This document shows positions 45,911 through 47,631 of a stretch of 64,000 nucleotides of DNA, one piece after another (the first letter of the stretch is position 1; each line of letters starts with the position of its first letter). Position numbers and translations under genes: made by a program. The notes under the pieces were generated by a model that saw only the letters and a list, made by a program, of their open reading frames with translations, had not been told where the DNA came from and made no database searches. The stretch is from positions 62,001-126,000 of the forward strand of contig JALSRK010000052.1 of assembly GCA_026984795.1 (NCBI GenBank), read 5' to 3'. This DNA comes from Solibacteraceae bacterium. Lineage in GTDB: Bacteria; Acidobacteriota; Terriglobia; Bryobacterales; Bryobacteraceae.

Positions 45911-46609
45911 TCAGGAAGCGCCGGCCCGGGCCTCGGCGATCTCCTCGAGAATGCGCCGGGCCTCGGCGGCGGGATCGGCGGTGCGGGTGATCTGGCGGCC
46001 GATGACGAGGTAGTCGGCTCCGTTGCGGATCGCCTCGGCGGGCGTGGCGACGCGCTTCTGATCGCCCCGGGCGGCGCCGGGGCTGCGGACGCCCGGCGTG
46101 ACGAGGGTCATCCCGGGGCCGGCGATCTCCCGGACGCGGCGGACCTCGAGCGGCGAGCAGACGACGCCGTCCATGTCCGCCTCCTTGGCTTTCCTGACGC
46201 GCAGCTCGACCAGCTCTTGCACCTCGCACGGGTAGCCGAGATCGGCTAGGTCTTCACGGTCGAAGCTGGTAAGCACGGTGACCGCCAGCAGCTCGAGCCG
46301 GGCGCTTCCCTTCCCCTCGACGGCGGCGCGCATCACCGGGCCGCTGCCGTGGACCGTCAGGAAACGCACGCCCGCGGCGGCGACCTGGCGGACCGCCCGT
46401 TTCACCGTCTCCGGGATGTCGTAGAACTTCATGTCGAGGAAGACGTCCCGGCCGGCGCCGACGAGTTCGCGGACGAAGTCCATTCCGGCGGCGGCGTAGA
46501 GTTCCATGCCGACCTTGTAGGCGGCGGCGTGGCCGCCCACGGCATCGACGATCCGGCGGGCTTCCTCCGCCCCGGGCACGTCGAGAGCCACGATGATCGG
46601 ATTCTTCAT
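45911..46609 (-). CDS. pyrF: orotidine 5'-phosphate decarboxylase
   Basis: This 232-residue TIM barrel has IIVALDVPGAEEARRI (about 5), the catalytic DxKxxD region FLDMKFYDIPETVKRAV (about 58), VHGSGPVMRAA (about 88) and VTPGVRSPGAARGDQKRVATP (about 172, substrate phosphate loop). It makes UMP from OMP. The ATG at 46609 overlaps the selD stop by ATGA. A pyrimidine gene coupled to selD is an unusual pairing. Confidence 0.95.
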   Translation of the reverse strand: MKNPIIVALDVPGAEEARRIVDAVGGHAAAYKVGMELYAAAGMDFVRELVGAGRDVFLDMKFYDIPETVKRAVRQVAAAGVRFLTVHGSGPVMRAAVEGKGSARLELLAVTVLTSFDREDLADLGYPCEVQELVELRVRKAKEADMDGVVCSPLEVRRVREIAGPGMTLVTPGVRSPGAARGDQKRVATPAEAIRNGADYLVIGRQITRTADPAAEARRILEEIAEARAGAS

Positions 46610-47631
46610 GTCAGGTAGATCGACTTCTCCCGGCGCTCGACGACCCGCCCGATGCGGTAGGCGCCCGGATGCTTCTTCACCACCTCGGCGGCGCCGGCCT
46701 CCGGCAGAGCGGCCAGCAAGCCGCCGGAGGTCTGGGGATCGTAGAGGAGATTGAGGATTTCCTCGGCCAGCGACCCGGCCCCGGCCACGTCGCATTCGAA
46801 GAAGGAGCGGTTGTTCTTCAGGCCGCCGGGAATGGCCCCTTGCCGGGCGTACTCTATGGCCCCGGGCAGGAACCGGACGGCGGCGGCCTCGATCTCGCAG
46901 GAGACGCCGCTCGCCAGCGCGAGTTCGCGCAGATGGCCCAGCAGGCCGAAACCGGTGACGTCGGTGCAGGCGTGGACCTCGAGGCCGGCCAGGGCTTCGG
47001 CGGCGGCGCGGTTCAGCGTCTGCATGGAGGCGATCGAGGCTTCGACGTGGTCCGGGTGCGCGACGCCGCGCTTCAGAGCCGTCTGAACGATGCCGGTGCC
47101 GAGCTTCTTGGTGAAGACCAGCGCGTCGCCCGGCCGCGCACCGGCGTTGGTCCAGATGCGGTCCGGGTGGACGATGCCGCTCACCGAGAAGCCGAACTTG
47201 ATCTCCGGGTCGTTCACCGAGTGGCCGCCGACGATGGGGCAGCCGGCCTCGCGCATCTTCTCGGCGCCGCCGGTGAGGATCTGCTGCAGCGTCTCGATGC
47301 CCAGCTTGGCCGGGTAAGCGACGATGGAGAGGGCCGAGACGGGCCGGGCGCCCATGGCGTAGATGTCGCTCAAGGCGTTGGCCGCGGCGATGGCCCCGAA
47401 GGTGCGCGGATCATCGACGATGGGGGTGAAGAAGTCCACCGTCTGCACCAGGGCGCACTCCGGCGACAGCTTGTAGACACCGGCGTCGTCGGCGGTGTCG
47501 AAGCCCACCAGCACGTTCTCGTCTGTCACCCGCGGCACGCCGCAGAGCACCTGGTCCAAGACCCTTGGACTCAACTTGGACGCTCAACCGGCGGCGCTGA
47601 CGTGGGCGGTCAGCTTCTTCGCATCGCTCAT
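46606..47631 (-). CDS. selD: selenide, water dikinase SelD containing selenocysteine
   Basis: The full gene starts at the ATG at 47631 and reads MSDAKKLTAHVSAAG, then an in-frame TGA (47584-47586) as residue 16, then ASKLSPRVLDQVL and the rest. Residue 16 corresponds to the catalytic Cys/Sec of SelD, with the essential Lys three residues later (U-x-x-K). Further motifs are FDTADDAGVYKL (about 44), NALSDIYAMGARP and VGGHSVNDPE. Length 341 with the Sec, typical of SelD. A conventional caller would start it at the TTG at 47574 and lose the active-site residue. It makes selenophosphate. A hairpin fitting a bacterial SECIS follows the TGA. Confidence 0.95.
47554..47570 (-). promoter_or_regulatory. 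candidate bacterial SECIS hairpin of selD
   Basis: On the mRNA, GUCCAAG and CUUGGAC form a perfect 7-bp stem with a GGU loop, starting 14 nt after the UGA codon and with its loop at +21 to +23. That is the distance and loop type (G and U exposed) required by SelB-dependent bSECIS elements. Confidence 0.65.

Follow-up and report, generated by a model that had tools for sequence, protein, structure and literature searches.

The window, a stretch of 64,000 nucleotides from a Solibacteraceae bacterium, carries on its minus strand a selD gene (selenide water dikinase, i.e., selenophosphate synthetase; 46606..47631) that has an in-frame UGA at codon 16 (47584..47586). When this TGA is read as U, the translation (MSDAKKLTAHVSAAG-U-ASKLSPRVLDQ...) extends over 341 residues to a stop codon at 46606-46608, with Sec predicted at residue 16. 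The next gene on the same strand (45911..46609), which we take to be that for orotidine-5'-phosphate decarboxylase (pyrF), begins with an ATG that, from a reading of the sequence, overlaps the selD stop (ATGA; 46606-46609); this overlap suggests translational coupling of selD and pyrF. An Rfam scan of the window gave zero matches at the gathering thresholds, and a search with PF00266, a general aminotransferase family, was uninformative on Sec.

With C placed at the TGA, the SelD model TIGR00476 matched over profile positions 1-309 of 311 with 378.6 bits (cut-off, 125). The frame that the original prediction had drawn through codon 16 was confirmed. The window SelD also scored 323.7 bits against NF002098 (cut-off, 299). 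Among solved chains, the best match (E = 1.3e-73) was to the selenide water dikinase PDB 3u0o, in which AGCGCKISP aligns with AGUASKLSP of the window SelD, the U lying opposite Cys of AGCGCKIS. U16 and K19 (codon 19; 47575..47577), both in the active-site loop, are aligned with Cys and Lys of both 3u0o and 2yye. On the basis of the 3u0o alignment, the UGA occupies the active-site Cys position with Lys at +3, as had been proposed. We presume that this Lys is essential in SelD, and the roles of both loop residues are likewise presumed here.

If the UGA is taken as a stop, the first ORF under the standard code starts at a TTG (47572..47574) and encodes 322 aa (46606-47574) without the active-site loop, i.e., the outcome that the original prediction expected of a standard gene caller. 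A pseudogene, or a truncated SelD translated from this TTG, would coincide precisely with that ORF. However, the TTG lies immediately 3' of the conserved Lys codon, within the active-site loop, and relatives conserve the frame 5' of the UGA (KLTAHV-AAG type). The remaining frame is unbroken as well and aligns with the family model along almost its entire length. We therefore consider truncation or decay of the gene extremely improbable, and favor a full-length SelD with Sec at codon 16.

A perfect 7-bp stem capped by a GGU loop (GUCCAAG/GGU/CUUGGAC; 47554..47570, minus strand) was located 14-30 nt downstream of the UGA, where it had been predicted, and its loop begins after a 20-nt spacer. A bacterial SECIS model, as given in the available portion of its source (PMC13188914), has a loop of 3-9 nt with G within the first two positions, a stem of 4-16 bp, a UGA-loop spacing of 16-37 nt, and an MFE limit of -7.5. 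The window hairpin (3-nt loop, 7 bp, 20 nt) lies within all of these limits, although the bare 17-nt element is barely under the energy limit given there (-7.6 versus -7.5 kcal/mol; PMC13188914). An MFE of -7.6 kcal/mol was equalled by 4 of 200 shuffles. We also drew synonymous codons at random according to the usage of five window genes, with the protein fixed. The exact 7-bp stem arose in 0.01% of 20,000 such draws, any stem with bacterial-SECIS geometry and 7 bp or more arose in 4.7% of them, and a 40-nt fold of equal stability arose in 2.6% of 5000 draws. Since chance stems reach 4.7% and the 44-nt fold is unremarkable by shuffling (z = -1.00), the single hairpin is weak evidence; the hairpin evidence is firm because the element is conserved across relatives. 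A loose test of bacterial-SECIS geometry was passed by 60 of 60 Sec and 7 of 10 Cys selD genes, and is not counted as evidence because it fails to separate the two forms.

We searched 101 genomes (i.e., the window's own, G000, and 100 relatives) for SelD at E = 1e-30 and found a match in 88. The site comparison covers 70 genomes, the window's own included, with 18 same-order genomes set aside from the 88 (16 of family f3 with fusion-type frames and two of family f2 with fragments). Codon 16 was TGA in 60 of the 70 and TGC or TGT in the other 10. Among the best 80 of more than 572 loci in a collection of named genomes, TGA occupied the site in 69 and a Cys codon in 11 (seven of the 80 repeat the first set, all with TGA). 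Of the 69 UGA loci, 56 had the loop of their best stem at 19-20 nt. The titles among the matches listed include Acidobacteria, Deltaproteobacteria, Chloroflexi, Neomarinimicrobiota, Calditrichaceae, and Bacillota; the closest SelD sequences among these matches come from acidobacterial and Bryobacterales MAGs, and by SelD alone the window would most probably belong to Bryobacteraceae (Acidobacteriota).

Compensatory changes, together with rare codons, maintain the hairpin across these genes. Of the 420 pair cells in the 60 Sec genes, 381 were paired (mean of 2000 shuffles, 358.2; maximum, 367), and 20 cells had changed on both sides (shuffle mean, 4.4; maximum, 10; 2000 shuffles), the double changes falling in four of the seven stem pairs. 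Sliding the 3' arm by 1-3 bases left only 66-254 pairs and 1-11 double changes. Sec genes formed a mean of 6.35 of 7 pairs, compared with 3.07 expected for the same proteins under the codon usage of the window, while Cys genes formed 3.8 pairs (2.87 expected on the same basis). The Pro codon CCA, which in five window genes makes up 1.9% of all Pro codons, was present in 53 of the 60 Sec genes and in none of the 10 Cys genes; for the Leu codon TTG (9.7% in the same five genes), the counts were 49 of 60 and 0 of 10. The window selD carries both of these hairpin-building codons. Fisher tests of Sec versus Cys genes gave p values of 5e-8 (CCA) and 9e-7 (TTG), which overstate the case because the rows are related by descent.

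These data bear on whether an error in sequencing or assembly has turned the TGC of an ordinary Cys-form SelD into TGA. The two codons are a single base apart, and Cys forms (TGC/TGT) do occur among the relatives (10 of 70 genomes). However, TGA recurs in the large majority of both collections, and the rare codons that build the hairpin are found in TGA genes, including that of the window, and are absent from the 10 Cys genes. We thus attach hardly any probability to an error, an outcome that would have counted against the original prediction, and retain the UGA as a predicted Sec codon.

Fewer than six pairs at the main position were found in five of the 60 Sec genes. In two of them (G086 and G094) the loop of a 10-bp stem lies at 33 nt, and in two others (G084 and G099) that of a 7-bp stem lies at 17 nt, while a convincing stem elsewhere was sought in the selD of G078 and none was found. 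The loop of the best hairpin lies at 33 rather than 20 nt in eight loci (L099 and L100, which belong to G086 and G094, and L153, L157, L160, L174, L176, and L178), and the SECIS seems to have moved within selD in these genes. A protein tree of 67 rows (short or cut sequences of G012, G046, and G056 omitted) requires seven Sec/Cys changes, of which three are forced by well-supported branches. Across these three independent contrasts, the hairpin followed in the same direction in 1.8 on average and never in the opposite one; with so few contrasts, a sign test was not significant (median p = 0.5).

The genome to which the window belongs (5,229,826 bases, i.e., 5.23 Mb, in 77 contigs; completeness, 96.81) contains the genes that decoding of Sec involves. 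The tRNA-Sec search gave 12 matches, three of them over the cut-off; eight were put through ARAGORN, and the best was called tRNA-Sec (C15:216009-216099; 79.1 bits; anticodon tca). The other two matches over the cut-off were called tRNA-Ser by ARAGORN and were rejected. SelA was found on contig C17 (420.2 bits) and SelB on C24 (profile positions 1-578 of 581; 373 bits; cut-off, 242.25). The machinery that the original prediction required elsewhere in the genome was thus recovered.

A further alternative is that a near-cognate tRNA reads through the UGA and inserts a residue other than Sec. In the part of PMC4561486 at hand, an SPS UGA of Hymenoptera is proposed to be read through in this way, with a residue other than Sec. 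The presence of selA, selB, and selC in the window's genome argues against it here, and so does the identity of the replacing codon, which is always Cys where it is not UGA (10 of 10 genomes and 11 of 11 loci among the best 80 of more than 572 named ones). We regard this kind of read-through as most unlikely. On the combined basis of sequence, homology, the machinery genes, and the comparative hairpin signature, we predict with great confidence that the gene encodes a selenocysteine-containing selenophosphate synthetase with Sec at UGA codon 16.

What is established about the bacterial Sec pathway indicates how the gene would be expressed and how its product would act. SelB, with GTP and Sec-tRNA-Sec, would bind the GGU-capped hairpin just 3' of codon 16, and this delivery would place Sec at the UGA. 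The Sec of SelD, together with the Lys three residues on, would then form selenophosphate from selenide and ATP. This product would feed SelA in the synthesis of Sec-tRNA, which is needed for SelD and also for the other selenoproteins predicted in the genome, at least five in number. A search of the genome turned up no selenouridine synthase (SelU/YbbB), and selenophosphate may therefore be used for Sec alone.

The original prediction had named formate dehydrogenase as an example of other Sec proteins to look for. None of the six PF00384 matches in the genome contains a stop (the genome is 96.8% complete, and assembly gaps are possible), and the further UGA-containing genes are instead of the thiol-redox type. 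Five of these were found, all of published kinds and, from their sequences, predicted to encode selenoproteins. Among 21 AhpC-TSA matches, four carry one TGA, the fourth match being weak (E = 5.4e-4); one of three CMD matches contains a TGA, and nine PF13905 matches contain zero stops. In three AhpC-TSA genes, the peroxidatic or UxxC position is encoded by an in-frame TGA (L185, G000:C76:40904-41299; L187, G000:C52:193396-193770; L190, G000:C27:52738-53133). They correspond to a peroxiredoxin with DFTFVUSTEL (L185), which is over the cut-off of the NCBIfam PrxU model NF040737 (399.6 versus 270), a second peroxiredoxin with the motif FTGGU, and a Prx-like protein with the motif UPYC. A further gene of the five is AhpD-like (HCVFU; L207, G000:C34:40975-41178; TIGR01926, 119.8 versus 81.8) and has a GC-rich hairpin after its UGA.

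The fifth predicted selenoprotein (L203, G000:C24:131153-131545) has the motif GCLTUPPF and C-terminal EF hands (Pfam), i.e., it is of a deiodinase-like/EF-hand type. Its similarity to the model NF038285 (deiodinase_rel) is weak (E = 1.2e-9; 38.1 bits; cut-off, 250), and the best solved structure is a thioredoxin-family protein (E = 3.1e-6), with a type III deiodinase at E = 0.073. At E = 1e-15 this type was found in 12 of the 101 genomes, the window's own included (L203 and L245-L257), and wherever the site was covered in these 12, the codon was TGA. Its distribution by family (the window's genome as the sole f1 member, one f2, and ten f3) is suggestive of transfer or loss between families. 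A fusion selenoprotein of deiodinase-like/EF-hand type has already been published, as seen in the accessible text of PMC9402790, and so this kind is known too. Hairpins of SECIS geometry can be drawn downstream of the UGA in each of the five genes, with loops at 17 nt (first peroxiredoxin), 23 nt (second), 17 nt (AhpD-like gene), and 29 nt (EF-hand gene). For the gene with UPYC, a GUG hairpin of 6 bp forms when folded by itself, but the local MFE fold favors a different stem. Because this geometry is not specific, the hairpins after these five UGAs are supporting evidence only.

Among the relatives, tRNA-Sec was searched for at a threshold of E = 1e-11 with stricter filters. It was found in all ten genomes with a Cys-form SelD (G002, G008, G014, G020, G030, G034, G040, G050, G090, and G098), and other selenoproteins are therefore expected there. 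It was not found at this threshold in 10 of the 60 UGA-SelD genomes (G006, G010, G017, G025, G038, G045, G046, G053, G057, and G092), which may be due to assembly gaps or to the strictness of the threshold and filters; G099, which shares a family with G092, passed narrowly at 8.8e-12. Six genomes have tRNA-Sec and gave no SelD match at E = 1e-30 (G003, G009, G011, G021, G082, and G093), with gaps or a diverged SelD as possible reasons, and seven showed neither a SelD match nor tRNA-Sec at these thresholds.

According to a 2006 statement, every Sec-decoding bacterium without FdhA has a Sec SelD (PMC1794560, as excerpted). The tRNA-Sec of all ten Cys-SelD genomes, together with the lack of a UGA in the six FdhA-type matches of the window's genome, provides a candidate exception. 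Some relatives might keep the whole Sec system while having neither a Sec SelD nor a Sec FdhA, using Sec peroxiredoxins and similar proteins alone; we put this forward tentatively, as a possibility that falls somewhat short of being probable. If true, such relatives would be an exception to the rule as worded in that excerpt (PMC1794560). The relatives also represent a natural experiment, in which selD differs repeatedly between Sec and Cys in genomes that still have tRNA-Sec, and the hairpin is mostly present (Sec) or eroded (Cys) accordingly.

The annotation of this gene, which is wrong under a standard-code caller, is now corrected, and the lineage decodes Sec; six selenoproteins are predicted in the window's genome, in which the search for a Sec formate dehydrogenase found none. 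In the sections of the literature available to us, FdhA and SelD are described as the most widespread bacterial selenoproteins (PMC1794560), Acidobacteria were credited in 2006 with three selenoprotein families and four selenoproteins, without selenouridine (PMC1794560), and Occallatibacter riparius (Acidobacteriota) is listed with three known selenoprotein genes (PMC12013277). Conversions of SelD from Sec to Cys, with remnant SECIS-like structures in some of the converted genes, were likewise reported in 2006 (PMC1794560, same excerpt). NADH dehydrogenase-like/SelD fusions have also been published (PMC4561486, in part). In 16 same-order relatives (family f3), SelD lies within a frame of 749-832 aa with no in-frame stop, as expected for such fusions, judging by frame length and the absent stop. 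One of these genomes (G079) also contains a separate SelD piece (C100:8-610; residues 7-203) with an in-frame TGA, perhaps a second, Sec form or contamination. Unlike the published fusions (PMC4561486, in the part available), the window SelD is a stand-alone Sec form. It resembles the Sec-containing bacterial SelD (SPS2/SEPHS2 type) in having, within the N-terminal loop, a UGA at the catalytic Cys position, and also in the hairpin downstream within the coding region and the Sec machinery in the same genome, and it differs from that type in nothing of substance. Thus, the gene is an ordinary further case of a well-known kind and not a new kind of system.
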